NCBI GenBank assembly: GCA_013002285.1
Contig: JABDKJ010000076.1
Coordinates: 1 to 64,000 of the forward strand
DNA length: 64,000 nt
Direction: 5' to 3'
From: Flavobacteriales bacterium
GTDB taxonomy: Bacteria > Bacteroidota > Bacteroidia > Flavobacteriales > JABDKJ01
Made by a program: the position numbers and the translations under genes
In this document: one piece after another, positions 36,604 to 52,727 of the stretch
Layout of the letters: each line of letters starts with the position of its first letter
Numbering within the stretch: position 1 is the first letter of the stretch
The notes under the pieces: model-generated
What the model was told of the DNA's origin: nothing
Seen by the model: the letters and a program-made list of their open reading frames with translations, nothing else
The model's database searches: none

Positions 36604-37695
36604 TTATAGCTCAAGAAATGTTATAAGCTCATCAATGACAACAGAAAGCTGAAATTTCGCCTCTACTCTCGTGCGTCCAGCTTTGCCCATCTCATTCATC
36701 AAAGTATTATTTGAGATGAGTTTTTCTATCCCATCTGCAAGGTCTTGTGCTTTGGTTTGCTTTATTAATATACCAGTTTCCCCATCTGAAATGATCTCTG
36801 GATTGCTAGAGCAGTCAAATGCGACAACTGCTTTGGATGCTGCCATAGCCTCGACAATAGCGTATCCAAATCCTTCCCAAAGAGATGGAAGAACAAATAG
36901 ATCTATGCTTTTTAAGAAGCCTTCTATCTCAGTAACGAATCCTTTTAATTCTATTCTATCTTGCAAGCCAAGTGATATTATCTGTTCTTTGACCTGTTTT
37001 GCTAAAGGACCTGTCCCTGCAATAAGTACTTTCAAGTCATGACCTTTGTCGACAAGTATCTTTGTGGCATTGATCAGATGATACTGTCCTTTTTGTTCGG
37101 TTAGTCTTCCTGCAGTTCCGATCACGATCTCATTACCTTTCTTGATGTATGCTGCTTTTTGTTGCTCGGCTGCATGATCATATGCACCAAGGTCTATACC
37201 ATGATAGATCACACCCGTTTTGTTCTTTATGGTGTCCTCATTAAAATTACCCAAGATCATTCGTTTGGTCTCTTGAGAATTCGCGATCAAGTGGGTCATG
37301 GCTCTTTTGAGCAAGTATGAATTGATGAAATTCTTTTTTATTGGAACGGCAAGCCCTCTTAAGTAGATGACTCGTTCGACATCAACTTTATGTGCAGAGA
37401 TGCCACCGACTTTGGCATCTTGCGAGGTCGTAAAAAATACCGTGTCTATTTTTTCATTTTTAAAAAAGCGTTTGACTTTTCTGTATTTAAAAGGGTTTAG
37501 AAATGAAAGGTTCTTTAACTTCAGACTATGAGTTTTGATCTTGTGAGCATTTGCTTCCATTTCCAGGGGAGATTTGGGAGCGCAAACCATATAGACATTG
37601 TATCCTCTTTCTTTGAATTCAAGGGCGTATTCCAAGTGTAGTTTTTCACCTCCACCCCAAAAAGAAACTGTATTAAAGAAACAGATGTTTTTCAC
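36604..37695 (-). CDS. GT4-family glycosyltransferase
   Basis: The 363-aa protein is a GT-B fold retaining glycosyltransferase. The N-terminal FWGGGEKLHLEYA and the C-terminal GTAGRLTEQKGQYHLI, PSLWEGFGYAIVEAMAA (Ex7E) and GILI blocks are typical. It has no signal peptide and would use a nucleotide sugar at the inner face of the membrane. The acceptor is unknown. It lies 42 bases after the UbiA-type gene in the same run and may modify a polyprenyl or membrane acceptor, which is inference. Confidence 0.92.
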   Translation of the reverse strand: MKNICFFNTVSFWGGGEKLHLEYALEFKERGYNVYMVCAPKSPLEMEANAHKIKTHSLKLKNLSFLNPFKYRKVKRFFKNEKIDTVFFTTSQDAKVGGISAHKVDVERVIYLRGLAVPIKKNFINSYLLKRAMTHLIANSQETKRMILGNFNEDTIKNKTGVIYHGIDLGAYDHAAEQQKAAYIKKGNEIVIGTAGRLTEQKGQYHLINATKILVDKGHDLKVLIAGTGPLAKQVKEQIISLGLQDRIELKGFVTEIEGFLKSIDLFVLPSLWEGFGYAIVEAMAASKAVVAFDCSSNPEIISDGETGILIKQTKAQDLADGIEKLISNNTLMNEMGKAGRTRVEAKFQLSVVIDELITFLEL

Positions 37696-37737
37696 CTTGG
37701 CGAATATAGAGCAATAATGGAAATTCTCTTTTTAGTA

Positions 37738-38604
37738 TCAGGGGATGTGTACGAGACACCCGCTCCACCACACATAGATCATGCTAGCAATTGCTATTCC
37801 ATTGGAAGCATACGCGAATAGTTTCATTTGAGCAAGGGTGTACATCTTGGTCTTAAAAAGTACGAGAAGATCTAAGATCAACCATAACAATGCAGCACTT
37901 AAGAACAAAGCAAACCAAAATTCCTTGAAGTAGTATCCAACAATAATGATCTCGGATAGAACCACAGCCATGATCAATACTTTGGTCTTGCTCATTCCCA
38001 ATTGTGTGGCTGTCGTTTTTCTACCGCTTTGCATGTCGGGTTCAATGTCCATTACCTCGCCCATTAGATGGGATTGCATTGCGAACAAGAAAAGATAGAG
38101 ATAGGTCAAGAACGGAAGTGGATCGGTTTCATTCAATGTGATGCTTAATGGAACGATGAGCAGATAACCTATTTGTGCGATCAGTTCTAAAGGCGGTCTT
38201 GAACGTAAGCCATTCTTCGGAAGATTATATAGTGCGTTCACCAAAATAAACAGTGCGAAGATCAAGAGCACTTTCCAATTGCTCATAAAAACAAGGGGTG
38301 TGAAGAAGAGTATCTGGCTCCAGACAATGGGTTTCCAGAGAACGCTTAATTGACTTTCCATTCCTTTCGCTCCAAACCAAAAATTACCCTTTCGTTTGTT
38401 TGCCTTATCGATCTCTCTATCTACAATGTCATTCCACCCATAGACGACAAAATTCAGTGGGAAACTAACGTAAAAAATACCATACCAGAATTCAAAATTG
38501 CTCCAAACGCTTTGTATCTGACTAGTAGGAAGAAGATATAGCCAAAGTGCTGCAAACCAGAGGCCTGGGCGTGAAACTTGCAGGAAGAATAGGAATTTTT
38601 TCAT
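37738..38604 (-). CDS. UbiA-family prenyltransferase
   Basis: The 288-aa integral membrane protein has about eight helices. The first Asp-rich motif is NDIVDREID (NDxxDxxxD). The second is weaker, EVMDIEPDMQSG. The start VSRPGLWFAALWLYLLPT recalls UbiA members near carotenoid elongases, so the acceptor need not be a quinone. It starts three bases after the EcsC-family stop, so it is coupled to the AAA operon. Which prenyl donor and acceptor it uses is not readable. The GGGP synthase 13 kb away makes an ether-lipid role conceivable but unsupported. Confidence 0.88.
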   Translation of the reverse strand: MKKFLFFLQVSRPGLWFAALWLYLLPTSQIQSVWSNFEFWYGIFYVSFPLNFVVYGWNDIVDREIDKANKRKGNFWFGAKGMESQLSVLWKPIVWSQILFFTPLVFMSNWKVLLIFALFILVNALYNLPKNGLRSRPPLELIAQIGYLLIVPLSITLNETDPLPFLTYLYLFLFAMQSHLMGEVMDIEPDMQSGRKTTATQLGMSKTKVLIMAVVLSEIIIVGYYFKEFWFALFLSAALLWLILDLLVLFKTKMYTLAQMKLFAYASNGIAIASMIYVWWSGCLVHIP

Positions 38605-38607
38605 GGA

Positions 38608-39408
38608 TCAGACCTCATCAAAAGCTTGTTCGATGATTTTTTTTCCGTACTTCCTTTCTAATCTTCTCACTACAAAGTGTCCCCTAGCGATGTCTTGAAA
38701 ATGAGAAATAAAAAGTGTGTTCACGACAGCACCACCGACAGCACCAACAACAGGTATTGCCTGTGCGGCTGCTTTCTCTGTGATCACGATAGAGAACCTT
38801 TCAGCAATAGAGCTAATGAACTTTACGATTATAGGAGCACTTGAGCCTTTTAGTCCATGTTCTGCTACAAACTTTGCAGCAGCATTTATAGAGCTGTTCA
38901 AAGCTGCTCGAACCGCGAAATACCCAGATTCTGTGCCGTCATCTCCGGCCGTTGGTCCGCCTAAAGCGAATACTTCCATGCAGGCCAATTTGGTTCCAAT
39001 GTCAGATATATTTTCCCCTTCGCTTCTCGCAATGTCTGCTATCGAGCGTATCATAAGAGTTGTGGATATCGGAAGTTCTACTGCTAAGGCGGCAAGTCCA
39101 AATGTTCCACCGACCCCACCTGAGACAGCAACCGAAAGTTTATGAAGGATATCAGAAGACTTTTGGGTGCTCTTGTCTTTCATCGTGAACACAGCTGCGT
39201 CAGCAGCTTTTGTGAGAGCAAGAGTAGACGCTTCCATTATCTTATTGGATACCTTGTCCGGTAAATTGGTCATAAAGGCTTCAATAGGAGTTCCTATTAA
39301 GCTAGAGATACGAGCTGCTAAGCTCATACGAGTCAACTGTTTCTTGGCTAAGGTCAGATCTTCAAGGTCCCTGGAACTTAGATCATTTTTCTTTACCTCT
39401 GAACTCAT
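38608..39408 (-). CDS. EcsC-family protein
   Basis: The 266-aa protein matches the EcsC domain pattern: GVGGTFGLAALAVELPISTTLMIRSIADIA in parts (LAVELPISTTLMIRSIA), ISDIGTKLACMEVFALGG, and the Gly/Ala-rich AIPVVGAVGGAVVNTLFISHFQDIARGHFVVRRLE in parts (IPVVGAVGGAVVNTLF, HFVVRRLE). EcsC proteins are amphipathic, membrane-associated and of unknown function. Its start overlaps the 579-aa membrane protein gene by four bases. It is the seventh gene of the proposed AAA system. Confidence 0.9.
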   Translation of the reverse strand: MSSEVKKNDLSSRDLEDLTLAKKQLTRMSLAARISSLIGTPIEAFMTNLPDKVSNKIMEASTLALTKAADAAVFTMKDKSTQKSSDILHKLSVAVSGGVGGTFGLAALAVELPISTTLMIRSIADIARSEGENISDIGTKLACMEVFALGGPTAGDDGTESGYFAVRAALNSSINAAAKFVAEHGLKGSSAPIIVKFISSIAERFSIVITEKAAAQAIPVVGAVGGAVVNTLFISHFQDIARGHFVVRRLERKYGKKIIEQAFDEV

Positions 39409-41144
39409 TGAGATAAGCTATCAGTTGTGAGCAAACTATCACTCTCGTTCAATTGAATAGGCTCTGTGCTTTCGTTCAAGATACCTTCTTGTCCCTGCAT
39501 GTCTCTCCTCATTAATTTTCGTTGGGTGATCACTCTTTGCTGGATCTTTGGAAGCCATCTTTCGGGATACACATCTTCACCTTTTAAAAGAATAATTATG
39601 TCATCATATTTAGCATGGATCAAATAGAGTTCGGCTTTAGTAGAAGTGCTCTCCCTATTCTGACCTCTCACGGTCAATATATTAGCCAAATAGAACATCT
39701 CTGGTTCCGGGTCATCTGGAAAAACATAGGTATAATAGGGCCTTTCGCCACCTGGAATAAACGTTCCGCCTTCCTTTCCGCCAACCCAATTATAGCTTTT
39801 GTCGTCTTCCATTATCTTCTCTACTACTACACTCATTCCTTTGTAACCGCTTCGTTCTATATTGTCCACTCTGTCATAAACATAAATGGTGTCCGTGTTA
39901 GAACCAGGAATGAAAACGTCCATGGAAAGCCCATATTTGGTTGAATCATATGGCTCTAATTCTAACCAATAGAAAAGTCCTGACCCCGCTTGTGGAGAGC
40001 CGGTTTTTTCAAAATTGAATTGCTCAATAACTGGAAGACTGCTGAAAGCATTTTTTAGTTGAGGGATCCTGTGGTCATTCTCATGATTACCAGGAAGTCC
40101 GGATGTGAATCCATATTTAAATCGGAGCGACTCACCAAAATAGAACACGGTTTTATCGTCTAACAATGCTTGTTCCTTTAGCCATGGAGTGGCCTTTACT
40201 TCATCAGCATTCAAGAATTTTCCCTTACCGGCAAATACCAATTCCAAATATGGAGTTGTACTATTGTCGAATATCATAACCCCGCCAAAACTAGGTTGAG
40301 GAAAAAGGAACCCTTTCCATGTGAGAATAGGAACTACCTGATAAAGTTTTCCTTTATTGTCTTTCATCCCGATCACCATATCTGATACTTCACTGTTGAA
40401 CATTTGAAGTAAGGATAATTTCTTACGAGCTGCTTTTTGGATATTGTATGAAAAGATCAGGTTGTTTCCCACCTGAAAATCTACCGGTTCGCGTTCATAT
40501 TGATCCAAAACAGGTGCCGGATTCTGAACATTTGTATGAATGAACTCTTCTACCTTTCCGCCAAATTGTTGGAAGAAATAATTTCCCGGTTCTGTCCAAC
40601 CTGTCCAATATTGTTCACCCGTTACCGGGTCTAGCCAGGTCCTTGGAGAAGTTGGTTGCCTGTTGTTGTTCATGGTCTCCTGAAAATAGGATTCCACAAC
40701 GAATTGCGGTTGGAGTTTTGGGTGGATCGAGATCGGTGGTTTGTCCAGTTCTATGATCGTTACACGATTCTTATACACGTAATAGGAACTGATGTAATTG
40801 TAGATGCCATTGCCAAACTGATATATGAATAAGCAGAACAAAGCGAATACTGCTATCCAAATACCCCTGGCATACCATTCAGAAGCCTTTTTGAACCTTC
40901 GATAGAAAAAATAGATGATCAGTAAACTTATAATGATCAAGGGCCAATAGATCCTGACATAGACTAACAAAGGTTGATAGTCTCCACGTCCCGCAATGAT
41001 GCCGTAAAGAAGTAAAAAGGGAAGTAGTCCAAAAAAGATCTTGCCCCAAGTTCCTCTTTCCTTAAATTGCCTTACATACCACTTGAAAGGTTTGAAAGAT
41101 CTTTTTTTTTCTTCTATTTGTTCTCCATGGATACTCACTTTCAT
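39405..41144 (-). CDS. membrane protein with large extracytoplasmic domain, unknown
   Basis: The 579-aa protein starts with a charged cytoplasmic segment and three membrane helices (about residues 34-53, 65-85 and 95-118: WGKIFFGLLPFLLLYG, YWPLIIISLLIIYFF, IWIAVFALFCLFIYQFG). The remaining 450 residues should face the periplasm. They contain extended beta-like stretches, GLFYWLELEPYDS and an RxQxxSTSTKAELYLIHAKYDD-like block, and end in a charged linker. I do not recognise the family; the layout recalls UPF0182-like proteins, but I cannot claim homology. It overlaps the EcsC-family gene and follows the 191-aa gene by one base. Confidence 0.75.
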   Translation of the reverse strand: MKVSIHGEQIEEKKRSFKPFKWYVRQFKERGTWGKIFFGLLPFLLLYGIIAGRGDYQPLLVYVRIYWPLIIISLLIIYFFYRRFKKASEWYARGIWIAVFALFCLFIYQFGNGIYNYISSYYVYKNRVTIIELDKPPISIHPKLQPQFVVESYFQETMNNNRQPTSPRTWLDPVTGEQYWTGWTEPGNYFFQQFGGKVEEFIHTNVQNPAPVLDQYEREPVDFQVGNNLIFSYNIQKAARKKLSLLQMFNSEVSDMVIGMKDNKGKLYQVVPILTWKGFLFPQPSFGGVMIFDNSTTPYLELVFAGKGKFLNADEVKATPWLKEQALLDDKTVFYFGESLRFKYGFTSGLPGNHENDHRIPQLKNAFSSLPVIEQFNFEKTGSPQAGSGLFYWLELEPYDSTKYGLSMDVFIPGSNTDTIYVYDRVDNIERSGYKGMSVVVEKIMEDDKSYNWVGGKEGGTFIPGGERPYYTYVFPDDPEPEMFYLANILTVRGQNRESTSTKAELYLIHAKYDDIIILLKGEDVYPERWLPKIQQRVITQRKLMRRDMQGQEGILNESTEPIQLNESDSLLTTDSLSQ

Positions 41145-41145
41145 C

Positions 41146-41721
41146 TTAATTCAAGTAATCGTTTATGATATCGTTTGGATCGTCCTTTTCTTTGGCTTTT
41201 GTCTCGGGGTCAGGTTTTTCTTTTGGGGCCTCTTTCGAAGGTCCAGAACCTTTAGTCTTCTCCCTCAATTCTTCAAATCCTTTTTCACTTTCAGAGATCA
41301 CCTTGTCTCCCTTTTTAAGTGCATCGTCTTTAAGGTCCACGATCTTGTTCTTGACCTTCGGCCACATGTATGACATGATCATTGCTAAGAAAATAGCTCC
41401 TGAATGCAGAAGCCAAGCCATAGGGCCAGTGAAAATATCGAATGTGCCGGATGCCCATTTAAAATCAAAAATGAGATCATAGACACCTCTTATCACCAGA
41501 GCAGCTAGCAATGCCAATAAGATCTTGATCCAAATAGGTTGGCGAAAGAGGATGCCTCTTGGTCCGCGATCGTCTGCAAATTCCCATCCTTTGACCTTAT
41601 TCAAAATTGAGGCCAATGGCCCCTTGGGTGAGGTCTTTCTTATAGCATCCCTATATCCTAGGAACATGAAAAGTAAGAAAGATCCACCTGCGATCATTAT
41701 AAATTCTATTAGTGCGTTCAT
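41146..41721 (-). CDS. small membrane protein with charged tail, unknown
   Basis: The 191-aa protein has three hydrophobic helices: residues 4-22 (IEFIMIAGGSFLLFMFL), about 65-82 (IKILLALLAALVIRGV) and about 105-120 (HSGAIFLAMIMSYMWP). A Lys/Asp/Glu-rich cytoplasmic tail follows (KAKEKDDPNDIINDYLN). There is no recognisable domain. It sits between the 428-aa and 579-aa genes with gaps of nine and one base, so it is very likely a fixed partner in the membrane part of the system. Confidence 0.75.
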   Translation of the reverse strand: MNALIEFIMIAGGSFLLFMFLGYRDAIRKTSPKGPLASILNKVKGWEFADDRGPRGILFRQPIWIKILLALLAALVIRGVYDLIFDFKWASGTFDIFTGPMAWLLHSGAIFLAMIMSYMWPKVKNKIVDLKDDALKKGDKVISESEKGFEELREKTKGSGPSKEAPKEKPDPETKAKEKDDPNDIINDYLN

Positions 41722-41730
41722 TGCGTAAGT

Positions 41731-43017
41731 TTAAATTTTGTCCATATCCAGATAGTTCTTGTATCTGGGAGCTATATAATTCACGGCCCATTGTTTTTTT
41801 GCTTGAGGCCATGTTTTGTATTGATTGAAGAATTCCTCTTTATCATAGATGTATAATCTGAATACATCGTAAGGGTCGATCTTTAAGAGTATGCGCCAAA
41901 TGATCCTGGTTATTCTTTTAGAGAACTCTGGGTTGGGGCGGATCAAGCGGTTGAATATTGGTTTAGGGAGTTTCCCCAGTTTGATGATCTGGCCTTTTTT
42001 GAGTTTGTTAACTACATCCTCAAACTCGAAATAATTCTCAGTTAAAAGACCAGCTTTGGTATAACGGTTCACTCGCTGCCTGATCTGAGGTGCAGTTAAT
42101 GCGCTAACATCAACATCTGGCTCTTCTTTGAAAATGACATTAGCTAATTCTAGGAACATCAATCTTTCAATGTCCTCGACTTGCCTAAAAATCGTGTCTG
42201 CATAAACACCAATGATATTCTTGTCAATGAGGTAGTTTTTTAGTTTAGGGTCTTCAAGATTGTATTCCATGTGGTGAGCAGCTTGCCCTCTGATCTCATC
42301 TCCTTTCTGTGAATATTTCTCGTAAATCAGCACAGGCTGTCTGAGTCCTGCAAGTTTTCGAAGCAGAAATATCCCATCAAATGCCCTCGTGTAAAAGCTA
42401 TCGACCTCCATGAACGTAATATCAGGGAGAAGGAATTTCTTGTTTGCAAGCACCCCATATTCTTGATAACTGTTACGCAGTTTATTTCTCAAAGAGGTAT
42501 CAGCCCAGGCATATTCTTCATCATAGAACTTTCGTTCCATTTGCAATTGCAGTTCTTTTGCTTCCGAAAGCTTATCTACAGTTGAGAAACGCATCGTAAA
42601 ATATTCTATGCCCAAAAGATCTTCAGGCGATCTATAAGATGAGATCTCCTGATCACATTCCACAACTATCGCTGTGCGCATAGTAAGCTCATGTATCTGA
42701 TCTTCTAACTCATCAAAGATCATTTGAATAATGTACTTGTCGAAAGAATGATATGGCATGTAAACAGGCACATTCTTTTGTTTAGGAGTTATGATCAAAG
42801 CATATGGATTTGCCAAGCCATGCGATAGGTAAAAGTCATCTTCCTTTTCTATCGCCACTTCTGGAGACCACCCCCAACCGTCAATAGAAAAGCTCTTGAG
42901 CTTTGTTGGTTCAATTCCTAGAGACTCCAACGCACCATTGTATCGATCGATCTGGGTCTTTGTCCTGATCTCGATCATACCCTTGCGGTAAAGGTCATAT
43001 TCCTTGAGTAGCTCCAT
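41731..43017 (-). CDS. uncharacterised 428-aa cytoplasmic protein
   Basis: It is soluble, with no signal peptide. Notable blocks are SFSIDGWGWSPEVA, YALIITPKQKNVPVYMPYHSF, and RTAIVVECDQEISSYRSPEDLLGIEYFTMRF in parts (IVVECDQEISSYRS). A helical end contains a motif like a winged-helix (SALTAPQIRQRVNRYTKAGLLTENYFEF in parts: APQIRQRVNRYTKAGLL). I recall no named domain. It begins directly after the AAA ATPase gene stop (zero gap), which strongly suggests fixed stoichiometry with that ATPase. Confidence 0.75.
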   Translation of the reverse strand: MELLKEYDLYRKGMIEIRTKTQIDRYNGALESLGIEPTKLKSFSIDGWGWSPEVAIEKEDDFYLSHGLANPYALIITPKQKNVPVYMPYHSFDKYIIQMIFDELEDQIHELTMRTAIVVECDQEISSYRSPEDLLGIEYFTMRFSTVDKLSEAKELQLQMERKFYDEEYAWADTSLRNKLRNSYQEYGVLANKKFLLPDITFMEVDSFYTRAFDGIFLLRKLAGLRQPVLIYEKYSQKGDEIRGQAAHHMEYNLEDPKLKNYLIDKNIIGVYADTIFRQVEDIERLMFLELANVIFKEEPDVDVSALTAPQIRQRVNRYTKAGLLTENYFEFEDVVNKLKKGQIIKLGKLPKPIFNRLIRPNPEFSKRITRIIWRILLKIDPYDVFRLYIYDKEEFFNQYKTWPQAKKQWAVNYIAPRYKNYLDMDKI

Positions 43018-45000
43018 TTATGATGAGAAAAGCTTTGGTTCTATTTCTTCGGCTTTCTCAATAGCCTTTCTATTTACAATGTATTGTTCTGTCTGTTCTT
43101 TGATCTTTCTATCTACTTCAGAATTTTTTATGGAGATCAATGAAGAAGCCTGTTTTACCATTTCCTGATACCAGATCTTATATAGGTTTACCTTCTTTGC
43201 TCGTTCTCTTTTTAGGTCTGTCAATATCCCAAGTCTATCATCATAGGCTTTGTCAAAGAACAAAGATCTCTTTTCGAAAAAGTCCGTTGGAATATCAAAA
43301 TCCATCAATATGAAATCTACTGCACTATGCACATTTCTGTCTTCACGTGCAGTCCAGTATTCGTATTTGTCGCTCATGAGATCTTGGAACATAGCAAAGA
43401 ACCTTGGGTCGCTTTCTTTGTCGTATCTCGCGGATGCTTTTTCTACGATCTCACGCACTTCTGGTCTGATGATCGTTTCGTCAAATTTGATCTCGCTCAA
43501 ATATTCTGGAATATCCATGGAGTCTTCATATTCTTTTCTTTCTGGAAGTTTTTTTCCAAGGATCCCTGGTACTTGCTTCTCGTGCGATCTCCACCAGAGA
43601 TAGTCCAAAGCAAGAAAGTCTTCATACGTTTTAGGGCCTCCGAGCAAAACACGTGATTGCACTCTGGATAGAATAGCAGCATCTAGAACCTCAGGCAGGT
43701 TAGTGAAGATCTGGATAAAGTAATTTCCATTGTTCACAGCTGTCGCCCCTTCAGTCATTGTAAGGACTGAACTTACTACGTGCCCTTGTCCTTCTGAACT
43801 TCCTTGCCTTGCCCTATCACCCAATAGATTCTCGCAGTCATCCCAAGGAGAGTAGGTGATCACATTTGGGTTTTTCAATCTGCGATCGAAGACTTCCATC
43901 TTTTTGGCAGTCTCACCTTGCAGGCTAGAGATGACCGTTCGAGGCAATGGAAGCATTACAAAAGGAACACCGATATTATCAGCCCTTTCTTTTCCATAGT
44001 TGAAAGAAGCAGCGATCAACATGGATTTTCCAGTTCCTGGAGGTCCATATTTCATTGTAAAACCTGGGAGACCTCCCAATTCCATCCAAGGGTTTTTCTT
44101 CAATTCTATGTCATAGCAAAGAAGACGGTCAATCTGTCTCATGTTGCTTTTTCTTCCTTCGGAGTTTGCAACGATGTCTGACATTTGGATGTTCTTGACC
44201 TCAACTTGAGAATGGCTTCCAAATGAAGCGCGTTCAAAGCCTTCGATGATGAAACCAGTATCTCCGTACTTGTATCTCTTGGTCGTGAAAAAATCTATGT
44301 ACTGACTTACCTCTATCTCAGATTCAATGATGTCCAGGATGCGTTCGTAATAGATCAATGCTGCCTTTACAAATGCTTTTGTGTCGTTTACCTTGTTGGA
44401 TTCTTTTACGAATTTCCCAAAATGATAAAGCGAAGAGTTCATTGCATTGACACTCCCGTTCAAACTTATGGCTGGGTTTTCATCCAGGCTCATCACAAGA
44501 GCAGCAACATCGTCTTGTTTATATTGATCTAGTTTCCAAACGATGTAATTGGCAGATACATGAAGTAGTATTCTTGCTTGAGTAACTTTCTTTTCTTCTA
44601 ATTCATTCTTGTCGTCTTCGTTCAGGTCGCCCTCGGCTTTTGCTTCAATTTTTAGAAGGCCTGAAGACTTTCTGTATTGCTTTGCGACATAGGTGCCAAG
44701 AGCTAGTCCGTTTTGAATTGCATTTAAAACGATACTTGCATCTTCATTTAGGAGATTCGTGTTTTGACTAAGTGTCTTTCCTAGACCTATCATTGAAATA
44801 CTCGCTTGGCCTATCGCACCTGTTCCGCCAAAGACCTTTCTTCTGGCGAGAATGCTGCTTCCTACATCATCAGCCGAACTCACCATGCTGGCAGCTTTTT
44901 TTGCATCTGTCCATTTTACTTCATGCAATAAGCTCCCGACAACCTCCTTGATCTGGTCCAGGTCCGCGTCTGTAATGGGTATGAATGATCTGTCTGCCAT
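43018..45000 (-). CDS. AAA+ ATPase, Cdc48/FtsH-like core with variant Walker B
   Basis: The 660-aa protein has a long helical N-terminal domain (residues 1-300), then a classic AAA module. Walker A is YGPPGTGKS (319-326), the second-region motif SLQGETAKKMEVFDRR is where AAA proteins have GESExxxRxxF, sensor 1 is IFTNLPEVLD (N434), and LSRVQSRV holds the arginines at the end of the helix. The Walker B acid pair reads PWDDCENL (D387-D388), with Asp where a catalytic Glu is normal. A further helical C-terminal 200 residues follow. It has no signal or membrane helix. Genes either side are spaced 0 and 7 bases away. Confidence 0.88.
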   Translation of the reverse strand: MADRSFIPITDADLDQIKEVVGSLLHEVKWTDAKKAASMVSSADDVGSSILARRKVFGGTGAIGQASISMIGLGKTLSQNTNLLNEDASIVLNAIQNGLALGTYVAKQYRKSSGLLKIEAKAEGDLNEDDKNELEEKKVTQARILLHVSANYIVWKLDQYKQDDVAALVMSLDENPAISLNGSVNAMNSSLYHFGKFVKESNKVNDTKAFVKAALIYYERILDIIESEIEVSQYIDFFTTKRYKYGDTGFIIEGFERASFGSHSQVEVKNIQMSDIVANSEGRKSNMRQIDRLLCYDIELKKNPWMELGGLPGFTMKYGPPGTGKSMLIAASFNYGKERADNIGVPFVMLPLPRTVISSLQGETAKKMEVFDRRLKNPNVITYSPWDDCENLLGDRARQGSSEGQGHVVSSVLTMTEGATAVNNGNYFIQIFTNLPEVLDAAILSRVQSRVLLGGPKTYEDFLALDYLWWRSHEKQVPGILGKKLPERKEYEDSMDIPEYLSEIKFDETIIRPEVREIVEKASARYDKESDPRFFAMFQDLMSDKYEYWTAREDRNVHSAVDFILMDFDIPTDFFEKRSLFFDKAYDDRLGILTDLKRERAKKVNLYKIWYQEMVKQASSLISIKNSEVDRKIKEQTEQYIVNRKAIEKAEEIEPKLFSS

Positions 45001-45007
45001 ATCTAAA

Positions 45008-46129
45008 TTATATTGCTACTAAATTGTCTCGAAGAGGGGTTATTATTTTAATCATTTTTGGATCGTCTAAAAGCAACTGTACAACAGTATGAGGAGCTAT
45101 CAGGTATTTATTGATGTCCGATACTTTTCGCCTACTACATTCAGGGTCATCTTTGTTGATGTGGAATTTTTGCAATGGAGTTTTAGAGCTGATCCAATTG
45201 GCCTTTATCAATTCTTCTTTAACTGATGCTATTACCTCTTCCTCGTAATAAACGATGAAATGATCTTTTGTTAATTTATGACGTTTATGGAACTTGCTAA
45301 ACGCATGCTCATCTTTTGAATATGCTCCATATAAAGGCCCGATATCATATTTCTTTAGGAGTTTTGGATGCAAGAATGGCATTTCCTGATCCATAAAAGA
45401 GATGATCTCATAACAACTCTTGGACCCCATTGCAACACTTTCTAAAATGTCTACAAATAGTTTGAAATGCTCGTTGGTTTTATCAAATTTTTCAGCTCCT
45501 CCGCTATATTCAAAGTCCAATACATAGACCATTGGCCTGTTAGTGGCCATGTCATAGGTAGACCAGGAATAGATCAGTGAACGTCTTCCATTTTCTTTTA
45601 TTCCTATTTCCATCATCTTTCCAGTGTTGTACATCAAATAGATCGCAGAAGGGATCAGATTATTGAAGTACTTCCTCTTTGAAAGAGCATCTAGTATTTC
45701 GTATGGTTCTTCTTTTTGGCTGCGAAGTTTAGATATCAAACGGTCTTTCAAGACGAGAGCATTCGGTAGATTGGCAATGAATTGTTCCTTGAGGTTATAG
45801 TCAGCTTTCATCTGCCTCAATTCAGCATGATTGGGAAAGCTTGAATCCGTAAGATCTATGCGAACGCTATGAGAGAGGTCGTACTGATATTTTAGATTGA
45901 GAAGTTCAATGCTCCGCTGCAAACGGGTTATGAAGAAAGTTATAACTGAACGTTCGACCTTTTTGTTTGAAGTCTCATTGAGTCTGGTCACAAAATGTTC
46001 GTTAAGCGCTTTGAATGCTTTCTTTACATAAATGAAATAGTCTAAGTATTCTTCCTTCCTCTCAAATTCTGTGCTGTCCAGTTCGCCAAAACCAGCATTG
46101 CCCATAATTTCTTCAAGCTCACTGACCAT
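45008..46129 (-). CDS. uncharacterised 373-aa cytoplasmic protein
   Basis: The protein is soluble, charged and mainly helical in its first 130 residues. The middle part (RRSLIYSWSTYDMATNRPMVYVLDFEYSGGAEKFDK in parts: YSWSTYDMATNRPMVYVLDF) looks like beta-strands, and the end has NKYLIAPHTVVQLLLDDPKMIK. No domain is recognised. It lies seven bases upstream of the AAA ATPase gene, and 32 bases after the coiled-coil gene. Its position suggests an adaptor or subunit of the ATPase, which is inference. Confidence 0.72.
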   Translation of the reverse strand: MVSELEEIMGNAGFGELDSTEFERKEEYLDYFIYVKKAFKALNEHFVTRLNETSNKKVERSVITFFITRLQRSIELLNLKYQYDLSHSVRIDLTDSSFPNHAELRQMKADYNLKEQFIANLPNALVLKDRLISKLRSQKEEPYEILDALSKRKYFNNLIPSAIYLMYNTGKMMEIGIKENGRRSLIYSWSTYDMATNRPMVYVLDFEYSGGAEKFDKTNEHFKLFVDILESVAMGSKSCYEIISFMDQEMPFLHPKLLKKYDIGPLYGAYSKDEHAFSKFHKRHKLTKDHFIVYYEEEVIASVKEELIKANWISSKTPLQKFHINKDDPECSRRKVSDINKYLIAPHTVVQLLLDDPKMIKIITPLRDNLVAI

Positions 46130-46161
46130 ATTTCAATTTTCTAGTATTCAGCATTTAAATA

Positions 46162-47538
46162 TTAACCGAGCATATCGCTTAACTCTTCATTCGTACTCTT
46201 TTTTCCACTATCAGCAGAATCTTCAGAACTTGCTGCTTCCCCTTTTCTATTGTCGACTATATAGTTGCCATCGGAGTCTATACCATAGTGGTCCTTAAGT
46301 TTTTCATTTGCTTCTATACTCCGCCTTGCAAACTCCCTTTGCTTGTCCATTAAGACTTTTGCAACTTCATCCAAAGTTTGTAGCCTTGCACCTTGTGATT
46401 CTACTCTTTCTAACCTTGCTCTTTGCGAACCAACAGTAGCTTGAGCTAACATTTCTGCACTTCTTTCATCTGTCTTAACTCCAGCTTTTTCAAATGTGCT
46501 TGTCACTTTCTGATATGCTGCTGCTCGCAAAGATGTTATTGTAGCTGCATAGAATGATTCTCTCTCTTTAGTATCCGACTTAAGTGCTGCAAGATCTGCC
46601 TTTAAGTTCTTCTTCTGGGTTTCAAGTGCTTCTATTGCAATAGAGTGTAATTCCACGAATCGTTCTTTAGAGTTGTAGATGGAACGAGCTACTTCAAAAT
46701 TCCCTTGCTGTTCTGTTATGCTTTTCTGAACCTCTTCTACATCTCTTTGCTTAGAGGTATGCTCAGGGGTGCCAGGTGTCAATTCTGCCAATTCTTCCAA
46801 TTTAGACTGGAGTAGTGACTTTAATTTTTCAATGTCGGCTTCAACCGTTTTCATTGCAGTTGCAGCTTGCTCTTGCAATTCAAAGGCATCTTTTTGTGAT
46901 ACTGTTACAGCCTGTAATTCCTCATCCACACTAGACATTTTGCCTTGAACAAAATTGGTGATCATCGTTACGATGGTGATCATCCTTTCAAGATGTTTTT
47001 CCAAAGGCTCATTTTCCAAACGTTCCTGGTGATGCGCTCTTGCTCTTACTCCCTCACTTTCTAGAAGCTTTGTTGCCGCATCAACTTCTTCTTTTGCTTT
47101 AAGGATCTTGTTCTTTCTTCCCCATAGATTGTTCCACCAATTGTCTTTAACGCCTTCTTTTTGTTCGAGTTCTTCTTTGGCGGCATCTAAAGCGCGTTGC
47201 GCTTTATCTATCCAACCTTGCTCTTCGTCATTGAGGTCGCGAATATCTTCAAAACCAACACCTATTTCATCTAGAAGGTTTTGCAGCGCAGACATGACCT
47301 TAGCCAAATTAGACCCGAATTTCTTCTCGTTCTGTAAAACAGAATCAGTGGTTGCATTAATGATGGCTTCCGCATCTACTGCGCTTTCTATCTTTTCTAA
47401 TTGTTCCTTGGTTTTGCTCATGACGCTTCCAACACCGATCTCCGCTTCGTCAAGAGTCTTTTTAACTCGAGAAGCTAAACTTCCAGCGTCAGAACTGCTG
47501 TTCTTAATTTCATCAAATAGGTCATTAATATCACTCAT
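46162..47538 (-). CDS. long coiled-coil protein, possibly TelA-like
   Basis: The 458-aa protein is almost all helical, with long coiled-coil stretches (VEADIEKLKSLLQSKLEELA, SKERFVELHSIAIEALETQK) and no signal peptide. I see a faint likeness to TelA/KlaA toxic-anion-resistance proteins in the part near residue 350 (ITSLRAAAYQKVTSTFEKAG), but it is too weak to claim. The frame is open from 47595; I chose the ATG at 47538 (MSDINDLFDEIK) because of the A-rich region just before it. It is the first gene of the seven-gene set and lies after a -7 element and an upstream terminator. Confidence 0.78.
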   Translation of the reverse strand: MSDINDLFDEIKNSSSDAGSLASRVKKTLDEAEIGVGSVMSKTKEQLEKIESAVDAEAIINATTDSVLQNEKKFGSNLAKVMSALQNLLDEIGVGFEDIRDLNDEEQGWIDKAQRALDAAKEELEQKEGVKDNWWNNLWGRKNKILKAKEEVDAATKLLESEGVRARAHHQERLENEPLEKHLERMITIVTMITNFVQGKMSSVDEELQAVTVSQKDAFELQEQAATAMKTVEADIEKLKSLLQSKLEELAELTPGTPEHTSKQRDVEEVQKSITEQQGNFEVARSIYNSKERFVELHSIAIEALETQKKNLKADLAALKSDTKERESFYAATITSLRAAAYQKVTSTFEKAGVKTDERSAEMLAQATVGSQRARLERVESQGARLQTLDEVAKVLMDKQREFARRSIEANEKLKDHYGIDSDGNYIVDNRKGEAASSEDSADSGKKSTNEELSDMLG

Positions 47539-47655
47539 ATTTATATTTTGGTTTAGTCCGATCCAACGATTACAATAACTTGAGGGGAGGAGCATAGGTT
47601 ATATCTTCTGTAGCCCTTAAAGTCAGGTAAGATCGTTCAATTTTTACCTTGCTAA

Positions 47656-47663
47656 CAAATGTA
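47656..47663 (-). promoter_or_regulatory. putative -7 element of the AAA operon promoter
   Basis: On the minus strand it reads TACATTTG, fitting TAnnTTTG, 118 bases before the chosen start codon. No clear TTG -33 element is seen. It lies between the terminator at 47764-47808 and the first gene, so a promoter is expected here. Confidence 0.35.
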
Positions 47664-47763
47664 TAATTTATATTGAATTTTGGGCTTTGAATAGGATGAA
47701 CGGGGTGAAAATATTATAAGTGCGTTTAAAGAGCAATTCATTTGCGAATGAGGAACTTTAGGG

Positions 47764-47808
47764 CAAAAAAAAACCGCTCTCTTTTCAGAAAGCGGTTCTC
47801 ATTTTTTT
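47764..47808 (-). terminator. terminator of the 47818-49143 T9SS gene
   Basis: On the minus strand, GAACCGCTTTCTGAAAAGAG CGGTT forms a hairpin followed by a run of nine or more T. It lies ten bases after the T9SS gene stop and separates that gene from the AAA operon promoter. Confidence 0.88.
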
Positions 47809-49279: not shown

Positions 49280-50512
49280 CTAGGCAACCTTGAGTTTAGA
49301 GATCTTCGAAGAAGAAAACTTTTCTTCGGCATATTCTAATGAGATATTCAATTCAGATACCGACCCATCGCTAGGTAATTCATACATTGCATCTCTTAAT
49401 ATGGCCTCGCAAATAGATCTTAATCCCCTAGCGCCCAATTTGAATGTCATGGCCTTTTCTACAATGTAATCCAATACATTATCATCGAAGGTTAGCTGTA
49501 CACTGTCTATTTCAAATAGCTTTTGGTATTGCTTGATCAATGCATTCTTCGGCTCTATCAATATCCTGCGTAATACATCAGGTGTAAGTGGTTTTAAGTG
49601 AGTGAGCACCGGGAAACGACCTATAAGTTCTGGTATGAGTCCAAAGGACCTTAGGTCTTGAGGAGCTACATATTCCAAAATGTTCTCACCTACAACCGCA
49701 TTCTCCAAACTTGCTGAATAACCAATGCTACTTGTGTTGATCCTTCTTTTGATCATCCTGTCAATACCGTCAAATGCTCCTCCGGCTATGAATAGAATAT
49801 TCTTAGTATTCACCTGGATCAGTTTTTGTTCAGGGTGTTTTCTTCCACCTTGAGGTGGGACATTTATTTCAGAGCCTTCCAATAGCTTCAGTAGTGCTTG
49901 TTGCACGCCTTCTCCGGACACATCTCGAGTGATCGAGGCATTGTCACTTTTTCTAGAGATCTTATCGATCTCATCAATGAATACGATACCTCTTTCAGCA
50001 AGCGCTACATCGAAATCCGCAGCCTGCAGGAGCTTGGATAATATGCTTTCCACATCTTCTCCGACATATCCAGCTTCGGTGAGAATGGTGGCATCAGCAA
50101 TGCAAAATGGCACATTCAGCATTTTTGCAATGGTGCGTGCAAGAAGAGTTTTCCCAGTCCCCGTTTCACCTACCATTACAATATTCGACTTCTCAATTTC
50201 GACATCATCACGAATAGATGGGTCATGAAGAAGTCTTTTATAGTGATTGTAAACTGCAACTGAGAGCACTTTTTTTGCCTCATCCTGACCGATCACGAAT
50301 TCATCTAAATAGGTCTTGATGTCTTTTGGTTTTTGCAATGTGAAGCTAGAGTCGAGTGACCCAACGGTCTTTTGCTCCATTTCTTCGCGCATGATAGAAC
50401 TTGCTTGTCCGATACAGTTATCACAGATGTGACCTGAAATACCGGCAATCAGCACGTTCACCTCATTCTTTTTGCGACCGCAAAAAGAGCAGTTGATCTC
50501 ATTTTTCCCCAT
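49280..50512 (-). CDS. clpX: ATP-dependent Clp protease ATP-binding subunit ClpX
   Basis: ClpX is the AAA+ unfoldase that feeds substrates to ClpP. The N-terminal zinc-binding domain has four Cys (C8, C11, C30, C33). The AAA core has [26 protein letters not shown] and VFIDEIDKI, plus the pore-loop and sensor-2 ([10 protein letters not shown]). The 410-aa length is normal. It follows clpP by 52 bases on the same strand, and tig is further upstream: the common order tig-clpP-clpX. Confidence 0.98.
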
Positions 50513-50564
50513 TGCTTACTCTTAAAGAATATGTAAAATACTGATTATCGAGGTCTTATTCAAA

Positions 50565-51245
50565 TTACTTCTTGTCCTTACCTCTAGCTAGTACTTCATC
50601 GATCATACCATATTTCTTGGCCTCATCGCTTTTCATCCAATAATCTCGGTCCCCATCTTCCCATACCTGTTTGTATTCTTTTCCAGTATGACTTGCGATG
50701 ATCTCGTACAATTCTTTCTTTAACTTCTGGATCTCTCTAGCGGTGATCTCAATATCTGAAGCTTGTCCTTGGGCGCCACCTAATGGTTGGTGGATCATAA
50801 CTCTACTGTGAGTAAGTGCGGTTCTTTTCCCTTTTGTGCCAGCACATAAAAGTACAGCTCCCATAGATGCTGCCATACCTGTGCAGATCGTTGCGACATC
50901 AGGGTTTATGTATTGCATGGTGTCGTATATACCTAATCCTGCATAAACACCTCCTCCTGGAGTGTTCAAATATATCTGAATGTCTTTCTTAGCGTCAGAT
51001 GATTCCAGAAAGAGCAGCTGGGCCTGAATAATGTTTGCTACGTAATCATTGATAGGTACACCCAAGAAAATAATTCTATCCATCATCAATCTAGAGAATA
51101 CATCCATTGATGCAACGTTCAACTGACGTTCTTCGATAATGGTAGGCGAGATGTAATTATTGGTAACTGAAGTATATTGGTCTAGTGTCATGCTGCTGAT
51201 CCCAGCATGTTTAATAGCGTATTTTCTGAATTCGTTTGCGTCCAT
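50565..51245 (-). CDS. clpP: ATP-dependent Clp protease proteolytic subunit ClpP
   Basis: ClpP is the serine protease that partners ClpX. The catalytic triad is S127 in TGMAASMGAVL, H152 in MIHQPLGG and D201 in DGDRDYWMKSDEA. The 226-aa protein has a longer N-terminus than E. coli ClpP, with NNYISPTIIEERQLNVAS in front of the mature core; autoprocessing is possible. It lies 132 bases after tig, a gap holding an inverted repeat. Confidence 0.97.
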   Translation of the reverse strand: MDANEFRKYAIKHAGISSMTLDQYTSVTNNYISPTIIEERQLNVASMDVFSRLMMDRIIFLGVPINDYVANIIQAQLLFLESSDAKKDIQIYLNTPGGGVYAGLGIYDTMQYINPDVATICTGMAASMGAVLLCAGTKGKRTALTHSRVMIHQPLGGAQGQASDIEITAREIQKLKKELYEIIASHTGKEYKQVWEDGDRDYWMKSDEAKKYGMIDEVLARGKDKK

Positions 51246-51310
51246 TTTTATTTTTTTGTGTATAACATCGATCTATTCGGAATGTCCTTATTTAGGAATT
51301 CGAAATATAC

Positions 51311-51341
51311 ATTTTTTCCCATGCCAGAGTGACTGGAAAAA
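51311..51341 (-). repeat. nested inverted repeat upstream of clpP
   Basis: On the minus strand, TTTTTCCAG TCACT CTGG CATGGGAAAAA: an inner CCAG/CTGG arm is set inside an outer TTTTTCC/GGAAAAA arm. It lies between tig and clpP and is followed within a few bases by TATATTTC (minus strand of 51302-51309), which resembles a -7 element. It could be an operator or an RNA structure; no U-run follows, so it is not a normal terminator of tig. Confidence 0.4.
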
Positions 51342-51377
51342 GTTAAGTTTTTATAAAGGCTTGTTGGAAAAAGAGAA

Positions 51378-52727
51378 CTACTTTTTTGCCAATTCTACGA
51401 ACTTATCGAAAGACACTTCTTTTTCAGAGAGTTTCATGTTCTCTTTCAAATAGTCCTTGATCTTTCTATCAAAAATTGCATCAACCAATTTTTTTCTTTC
51501 GTCTTGGTTTTGAAGCACTCTTACAGCAGTTTCTTGCAATTCCTCATCTGCAGGAGATGGATAACCGTATTGTGCATAGTTTCTTACGATCAAAGACTTT
51601 GCTTCATTCAATACTTCGTCTTCTTCTAGCTTTAGTCCAAAGTTCTTGATCATTTCATTAGTGATCAACTGCCATTTAAGGCTCATCGCGTAGTTGTTGT
51701 AATCTTGCTCTACTTGTTCAGGAGTAACAGGCTTTTCTGAAGAACGCTGTATCCATCTTTTTAGGAATTCATCTGGAAGTTGCACCTTGTGTTTTGAGAT
51801 AAAGTGATCAGATGCATCTCTCATGAACATCCTGTCGCTTTCTGTCACATATGCATCATCTAATTGAGCCTTGATCTTCGCCTTCATCTCATCGATCGAA
51901 TTTACGTTTCCTTCTCCGTAGATCTTGTCAAAAAGTTCTTGGTTGATCTCAGACAATTCCACATGCTTGATCTCTTTGATCGTGAACTTGAATTTTGTAT
52001 TAAGGTCGTGAACCTGGTCATGGGTAATATTCAATATCCTTCCCAATTCACCGTGGTTGCTTGTAATATGTTCCGGGTCGAGATCAACCGTGTCACCGAT
52101 CTTGATGCCTGTTAGCTGTTTCTTAAGGTCTTCATTCTCAATATAGTTAAGCCCCACAGATGACTCATTCATTATACCGCCTTCTTTAATATCGCCATTC
52201 TCGTCCAACTCCACAAAAACACCTTTGATCACATCTTCATCACTTGATACCTCAGCATCCATAAGTTTTCCGTACATCTTTTGCATACGTTCCACTTCCT
52301 GATCGATCATTTTGTCATCCACTTTGATGATATAGTATTTGACCTTGTCTTTTGAACTTACTTTGACATCCAATTCTGGAGCTAAACCTAATTCATATTC
52401 GAATTCAAAGTCTTTTGGATCATCCCAGTCACCTTTTTCACCTTCAGCTAGTGGAAGAGGAGTTCCTAGAACATCGATCTTGTTCTCAGTGATGTACTTG
52501 TAAATGCTTTCGCTAAGGACTTTGTTGATCTCTTCAGCTAATAAATGTCTACCAACTTTCTTTTTTACAACACCCATAGGGATAGTCCCAGGTCTGAAAC
52601 CAGGCATATTCATTTGCTTTCTGTAAGATCTTAACGCAGTATCGTACTGTGTTGCATAATCATCAGGGCTAAGGACTATCTTTAACTTAGCGTTGAGCCT
52701 GTCAATATTTTCTTGAACAATATTCAT
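51378..52727 (-). CDS. tig: trigger factor
   Basis: Trigger factor is the ribosome-bound chaperone that meets nascent chains. The 449-aa protein has the N-terminal ribosome-binding motif (PGFRPGTIPMGVVKKKVG, the GFRxGxxP signature), a middle PPIase-like domain and a helical C-terminal chaperone domain. It starts with the Bacteroidota-type MNIVQENIDRLNAKLKI. tig, clpP and clpX share strand and order, and tRNA-Leu lies 68 bases upstream. Confidence 0.95.
   Translation of the reverse strand: MNIVQENIDRLNAKLKIVLSPDDYATQYDTALRSYRKQMNMPGFRPGTIPMGVVKKKVGRHLLAEEINKVLSESIYKYITENKIDVLGTPLPLAEGEKGDWDDPKDFEFEYELGLAPELDVKVSSKDKVKYYIIKVDDKMIDQEVERMQKMYGKLMDAEVSSDEDVIKGVFVELDENGDIKEGGIMNESSVGLNYIENEDLKKQLTGIKIGDTVDLDPEHITSNHGELGRILNITHDQVHDLNTKFKFTIKEIKHVELSEINQELFDKIYGEGNVNSIDEMKAKIKAQLDDAYVTESDRMFMRDASDHFISKHKVQLPDEFLKRWIQRSSEKPVTPEQVEQDYNNYAMSLKWQLITNEMIKNFGLKLEEDEVLNEAKSLIVRNYAQYGYPSPADEELQETAVRVLQNQDERKKLVDAIFDRKIKDYLKENMKLSEKEVSFDKFVELAKK

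Follow-up and report, generated by a model that had tools for sequence, protein, structure and literature searches.

The described systems closest to the one reported here are the ESCRT-III/Vps4 machinery (ESCRT, endosomal sorting complex required for transport), the ATPases Cdc48/p97 and Afg2, the anti-phage system IetAS, and the phage shock protein (PSP) loci with AAA+ partners. In passages of the PSP survey, a helical protein, an AAA+ protein and membrane proteins share one neighbourhood, as they do here, but the PSP loci carry PspA/Snf7, whereas the present unit has no PspA relative (PMC11237479). DUF1523 and DUF2333, two families met at some of the loci below, do not occur in the main text of that survey, and passages of the ESCRT and PSP surveys (PMC11237479, PMC10936438) describe AAA+ neighbourhoods of other composition. 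Our locus lies in a stretch of 64,000 nucleotides from a Flavobacteriales bacterium (contig JABDKJ010000076.1, positions 1 to 64,000; the whole stretch is called the window), in which a preliminary description had singled out seven minus-strand genes as one AAA+ system. That interpretation is partly supported: a Cdc48/Vps4-like motor does stand at the heart of a co-inherited set, and the set is smaller than was thought.

A conserved four-gene unit

The conserved unit consists of four genes in the fixed order CC-P373-AAA-DUF6638, and not of seven. In the window these are:

46162..47538, minus strand: CC, core gene 1, a 458-amino-acid all-helical soluble protein with an acidic C-terminal tail ending ..DMLG, no Pfam family
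45008..46129, minus strand: P373, core gene 2, a soluble protein of 373 amino acids without known family
43018..45000, minus strand: AAA, core gene 3, the AAA+ ATPase, with Pfam AAA and motor motifs
41731..43017, minus strand: core gene 4, the DUF6638 (PF20343) protein, 428 amino acids

An alignment search with the ATPase gave at least 54 loci in named genomes, of which 29 (L001-L029; 28 Bacteroidota records and one metagenome-assembled genome, or MAG, of Moraniibacteriota, L024) match most of the ATPase and 25 about the AAA domain only. CC, P373 and AAA are present in the same order and on the same strand at all 30 places formed by the window and the 29 loci, and DUF6638 at 29 of them, the contig of L002 stopping after AAA. 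The CC of L024 is distant, yet it is matched by a CC profile that was built without it (E 7.5e-14). Two Bacteroidota genomes picked by DUF6638 alone (G125, G233) have six genes in order, and in two others picked in the same way (G319, G095) the ATPase lies about 9 kilobases from DUF6638. In Pseudomonadota, DUF6638 was found in 19 of 299 genomes, and we read 21 loci, from 18 of these genomes and from three (two Vibrio, one Sinorhizobium) of ten ATPase records in a plasmid collection; all 21 carry the four core genes in that order on one strand. The core is present in marine Bacteroidota, in Alphaproteobacteria and in Vibrio, and one of its records is from Sinorhizobium meliloti.

The remaining three genes of the preliminary description do not share this spread. 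EcsC was found in the window only, and a seven-gene unit that includes it is rejected for want of EcsC relatives in the 54 loci (stretches of up to 10 kilobases on each side), both at E 1 in the unfiltered open reading frames (ORFs) and at E 0.01 in the filtered ones. P191 and P579, the two genes that follow DUF6638 in the window, are a Bacteroidota-specific add-on, whose place is held elsewhere by DUF1523 or DUF2333. P579 is present at 28 of the 30 places (missing in L002 and L024), and a family of small membrane proteins stands between DUF6638 and P579 in 25 loci, with small unclustered ORFs there in L001, L003 and the window. In Pseudomonadota the next of these genes after the core is DUF1523 in 11 of the 21 loci and DUF2333 in eight; a DUF2333 protein also stands behind the core of L024, after two small transmembrane proteins.

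DUF6638 marks the system. Its profile PF20343 was found in 5 of 395 Bacteroidota genomes (one of them the centre genome), in 47 of 149 genomes from the family to which the Polaribacter genome G001 belongs, and in 61 of 101 from a single Pseudomonadota family, the centre of which was already known to carry it. It was found in none of 14 control genomes, and in none of 149 genomes of a Bacillota-type phylum, where no positive control rang and absence is therefore not established. In the Polaribacter family the ATPase was detected at E 1e-60 in 48 genomes, namely all 47 with DUF6638 and G839, where it is partial; of the 102 genomes that have no DUF6638, AAA is missing as well from 101. The preliminary description had named members scattered in relatives as grounds for refutation, and this is not what we see: the two genes are linked in 46 of the 47 genomes, where the ATPase comes before DUF6638 on one strand and the matched stretches are separated by 32 to 3264 bases, and the order is kept in two phyla. 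Pairwise locus distances are correlated between any two of five families (r 0.85-0.98 over 28 of the 30 loci, L002 and L024 being left out, and r 0.65-0.91 over the 25 closer loci, without the window, L001 and L003), a result that fits shared descent and is no proof of contact. Several gene clusters recur in the flanks of 8 to 17 of the 29 loci, and in the annotated Flavobacteriales locus L027 most flanking genes are metabolic (an ABC transporter-type ATPase, pirin, a carboxyltransferase, an amidohydrolase), which speaks for a chromosomal locus and against a mobile island. Carriage by phages was considered and rejected, as a viral scan gave at least seven loci whose matches, among those listed, all cover about the AAA domain only.

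Some single loci deserve mention. Between AAA and DUF6638, 14 of the 29 loci have a gene of one further family, whose two tested members (L008 11922-12542, L012 11949-12539) are NUDIX. In Sinorhizobium meliloti Ak57, where the core lies near choXWV, a gene with an endonuclease domain (L098 10688-11851) and an ISRm16-type transposase gene, within that same stretch, stand between the ATPase and DUF6638. The contig of the Moraniibacteriota MAG (L024 7363-15575) carries the four-gene core and then transmembrane genes and the DUF2333 protein; this genome, already known to us, is the only one positive for PF20343 among 192 of its phylum (Patescibacteria), so misbinning is possible. A CC protein from a Pacebacteria MAG (P0130) is 52 percent identical to that of the window, most aligned Bacteroidota CC proteins being 25-30 percent identical to it, and its contig may be misbinned.

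The motor, its partners and the membrane genes

By its motifs the ATPase is a classical AAA+ protein in which the motor motifs are kept. It scores 44.5 bits against Pfam AAA (cut-off 21.2), and its solved relatives, matched for the most part along the AAA domain, include Cdc48, Afg2, Rpt4 and Vps4, with Cdc48 and Afg2 scoring best. On metagenome contigs, the nearest relatives of the window have ATPases 57 to 91 percent identical to its own. Among 137 ATPase sequences (the window, 120 listed homologues and 16 loci) the Walker A Lys is present in all, Asn434 and Arg446 in 136 each and Arg450 in 135. We take Asn434 to be sensor 1 and the two arginines to be Arg fingers; the structural alignments end just before the arginines, and a relative of the ATPase (P0030) gave nothing at E 0.01 against solved structures. 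Pore loop 1 has a Phe or Tyr in 127 of the 137, at a position that aligns with the pore-loop residues of Cdc48. The kept motor motifs and this aromatic residue suggest that the ATPase, for which ATP hydrolysis is predicted, probably threads a protein. At the level of Pfam profiles no MIT domain was matched in the ATPase of the window or in two from Pseudomonadota.

All four core proteins are predicted to be soluble, and the membrane partner changes from one lineage to another. Hydropathy gave no transmembrane segments in 30 CC, 30 P373 and 29 DUF6638 proteins and in 29 of 30 ATPases, the remaining ATPase having one. The C-terminal tail of CC ends [DE][LM][LM][GSDE] in 27 of 30 and is a candidate handle. 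The CC profile found only generic coiled coils among solved structures, as weak matches, and a Foldseek search with the CC model gave nothing at E 0.001, its list being long-helix proteins of many kinds, which we did not use. Among 21 CC proteins, Pfam at E 0.01 gives no match to PspA_IM30 or to Snf7, and the hhalign probability of CC against PspA proteins is 1.3 percent (five PspA) or 3.5 percent (all seven found); by these comparisons CC is not detectably ESCRT-III. The 428-amino-acid protein scores 120.2 bits against PF20343 (cut-off 27), and the profiles of P373 and DUF6638 found no relative among solved structures at E 0.05. DUF6638 has a confident structure model without a significant PDB match, no family stands out in its VIA-align list, and homology between DUF6638 and P373 was rejected (hhalign probability 0.8 percent). 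The alignments (A2-A6) have 12 to 18 rows, selected from the 30 loci and search hits.

The genes behind the core nearly always encode membrane proteins, of several kinds. P579 has three transmembrane segments in 28 of 28 and the small family two or three in all 25 members, DUF1523 has two in 10 of 11 (one in the other), and DUF2333 has two in six of eight (one in two). Near the system in genome G663 (L091 3646-8115), beyond a divergent TetR gene, there are genes for PspA, a YiaA/B protein and a fused protein of major facilitator superfamily (MFS), acyltransferase and AMP-ligase parts, all of them envelope-related; the fused protein resembles lysophospholipid salvage. PspA was ruled out as an operon partner and is only a neighbour there because of the intervening TetR gene, and it is found in one of the 21 Pseudomonadota loci.

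Layout of the locus in the window

The seven ORFs fill 38608-47538 of the minus strand with the lengths and spacings that had been given for them: from the CC gene onward the gaps are 32, 7, 0, 9 and 1 bases, and the last junction is a 4-base overlap. The CC ORF has an alternative start 57 bases upstream, at 47595. Besides the core, the features are:

41146..41721, minus strand: P191, a small membrane protein with a charged tail, Bacteroidota add-on, with counterparts at the same place in most relatives
39405..41144, minus strand: P579, three transmembrane segments followed by about 450 residues, presumably periplasmic, Bacteroidota add-on
38608..39408, minus strand: EcsC-family protein (PF12787), a neighbour in the window outside the conserved set
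47762..47800, minus strand: intrinsic terminator of the upstream gene, setting that gene apart from the unit
47656..47663, minus strand: TAnnTTTG (-7 like) box, a plausible promoter element only

In Pfam, EcsC, DUF6638 and AAA exceed the cut-off, and P373, P191, P579 and CC match no family over it; the EcsC identity that had been proposed is borne out. Other profile libraries, at E 0.001, match the AAA domain to Cdc48, IetA, CdvC and a PHROG, and EcsC to PDC-S29. Three membrane helices had been ascribed to both P191 and P579, and by hydropathy this holds for P579, whereas P191 has two (a Polaribacter counterpart has three). The proposed upstream terminator is also confirmed: 47800-47762, between the upstream gene and the set, folds at -19.4 kcal/mol (z -4.7) and has a U tract, and a simple consensus scan listed neither this terminator nor any minus-strand promoter. 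The suggested -7 element does exist as a TAnnTTTG box (TACATTTG at 47663-47656), but the pattern occurs 47 times in the window against 59 expected from shuffles, no commoner than chance, so that the promoter is only plausible. The claim that the seven genes form one closed transcription unit is not supported at its lower end: behind EcsC the strand continues, at gaps of 3, 42 and 35 bases, with a UbiA-family gene, a glycosyltransferase gene and a gene for 254 amino acids, and transcription need not end at EcsC. The first two of these lie at 36604-38604. The gene upstream of the terminator carries a Por secretion tail, and beyond it, on the same strand, are the genes for ClpX, ClpP and trigger factor (49280-52727). 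Positions 1-105 are a 5S rRNA gene truncated by the edge of the window.

Proposed mechanism and comparison with known systems

Since the conserved unit is established, as are the kept motor motifs of its ATPase, it is tempting to ask what the machine could do. The kept motifs, the three strictly co-inherited soluble partners and the interchangeable membrane protein suggest that a client, in the simplest case CC, is remodelled at the expense of ATP. We infer that the ATPase would assemble into a ring, which would grip an exposed segment of the client by its pore loops and pull it through with ATP. The likeliest client is the co-encoded CC, whose assemblies would be dismantled or remodelled, and P373 and DUF6638 would serve as its dedicated adaptors or as structural components of the complex. 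A lineage-specific inner-membrane protein (P579 with the small transmembrane protein, DUF1523 or DUF2333) could, in most lineages, tether the machine or command it. The machine would then work at the inner membrane as a remodeller of the ESCRT/Vps4 or Cdc48 type, without belonging to the ESCRT family by the tests made. That the four proteins are a single machine of this kind, probably for envelope upkeep, is a tentative proposal, to which we give a little under an even chance. Several observations weigh against it. The second acid of Walker B (window residue 388) is Asp in 137 of 137 sequences, the usual Glu being absent; this Asp-Asp is a conservative, unusual fixed change, and the ATPase remains a member of the AAA family by Pfam AAA and by its remaining motifs. 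Pore loop 1 has Leu or Ile in ten sequences, that of the window (Leu360) included. The C-terminal tail is missing in eight aligned Pseudomonadota CC proteins and cannot be a universal handle, and neither is a membrane anchor universal, as the two Vibrio loci have neither DUF1523 nor DUF2333 and no membrane gene behind the core. The structure model of CC is poor (pLDDT, predicted local distance difference test, 61.7; pTM, predicted template modelling score, 0.36), the lowest distance correlations in the 25 closer loci involve CC, and in genome G783 the ATPase and DUF6638 are 752 kilobases apart.

The main rival is an extraction or quality-control motor of the Cdc48 or FtsH kind without a protease, for which P373 and DUF6638 would recruit misfolded clients, with CC as chaperone or spacer and P579, DUF1523 or DUF2333 presenting membrane proteins. 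The best scores of the AAA domain are against Cdc48 and Afg2, most sequences have the pore-loop aromatic, and membrane genes stand behind the core in most loci, all of which agrees with such a role. We nevertheless find it somewhat unlikely, as the conserved genes include no recognised protease (P373 and DUF6638 have no assigned activity), the ClpX and ClpP genes of the window sit beyond a terminator, and a general quality-control factor would not need the strict co-inheritance of CC. An assembly chaperone of the MoxR or CbbQ kind, acting on a cofactor enzyme or a secretion apparatus encoded elsewhere, would also have a small fixed gene set with one AAA+ protein and adaptor-like proteins, and the lack of a matched fold for DUF6638 would suit it. 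This is improbable, since the annotated flanks (three named loci and L027; most flanks are unannotated) hold no secretion apparatus, and the ATPase falls in Pfam AAA with classical AAA proteins, not MoxR, as its solved relatives.

A defence or conflict system with a sensor, a motor and a membrane effector could explain the patchy spread, and PADLOC relates the AAA domain to IetA, P373 to the candidate PDC-M01B (E 0.005, 66 residues) and EcsC to the candidate PDC-S29 (E 6e-6). The likeness to IetAS is a detectable similarity of the AAA domain to IetA over about 140 residues only, and the other core proteins do not match IetAS. The ATPase matches to IetA and TRIP13 are likewise partial, no system protein is matched at full length, and PADLOC gives nothing at E 0.01 for either CC or DUF6638. 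The genomic setting and the missing full-length matches (the PADLOC scan covered the proteins of the set) make defence less likely, and the viral matches confined to the AAA domain and the distance matrices that fit shared descent speak against it too; we give it little credence. Still less probable is a true bacterial ESCRT branch, with CC a very distant relative of ESCRT-III/PspA and AAA its Vps4. The helical partner, the classical AAA+ protein and the C-terminal tail motif are in its favour, as are the kinship of the AAA domain to the solved Vps4 and the PspA gene near one locus. Against it stand the Pfam and hhalign results for CC, and that PspA gene is cut off by the divergent TetR gene.

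A ChvI binding screen of S. meliloti lists, in one entry of a table, a fragment in SMc02733 (PMC3687685). No description of the four-gene set and no paper naming DUF6638 was found in the literature searched (preprints and most subscription journals lie outside it), in accordance with the earlier statement that the set matches no known operon. SMc02733 might, judging from locus numbering, belong to this cluster. While the motor represents a known kind, the other three core families are without known function. The function of the system can be tested now, its marker DUF6638 being present in the Polaribacter and Pseudomonadota families in which it was counted and the core in a Sinorhizobium meliloti record. 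The set looks like an undescribed bacterial machine for remodelling of proteins or membranes. A bolder version, which we hold to be doubtful, is a bacterial membrane-remodelling machine of an origin independent of ESCRT and conserved in at least two phyla: CC would be a new helical polymer that its own AAA+ motor dismantles, P373 and DUF6638 would each bring a new fold, and P579, DUF1523 and DUF2333 would be exchangeable sensors in the inner membrane. Should the remodelled client prove to be a helical polymer at the membrane, bacteria would have a second answer to the ESCRT problem.

Compared with Cdc48/p97 and Afg2, which are the best-scoring solved relatives of its AAA domain, the present ATPase has one AAA domain instead of two, an N-terminal region that does not match theirs, and dedicated operon partners. 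With ESCRT-III/Vps4 and the archaeal CdvB/CdvC it shares a Vps4-related AAA domain, a kept Walker A and a long helical protein encoded alongside, and two arginines at what we take to be the Arg-finger place. It differs from them in that the ATPase has no MIT match, CC no Snf7/PspA match and Walker B reads DD and not DE, and we know of no ESCRT counterpart for P373 and DUF6638.

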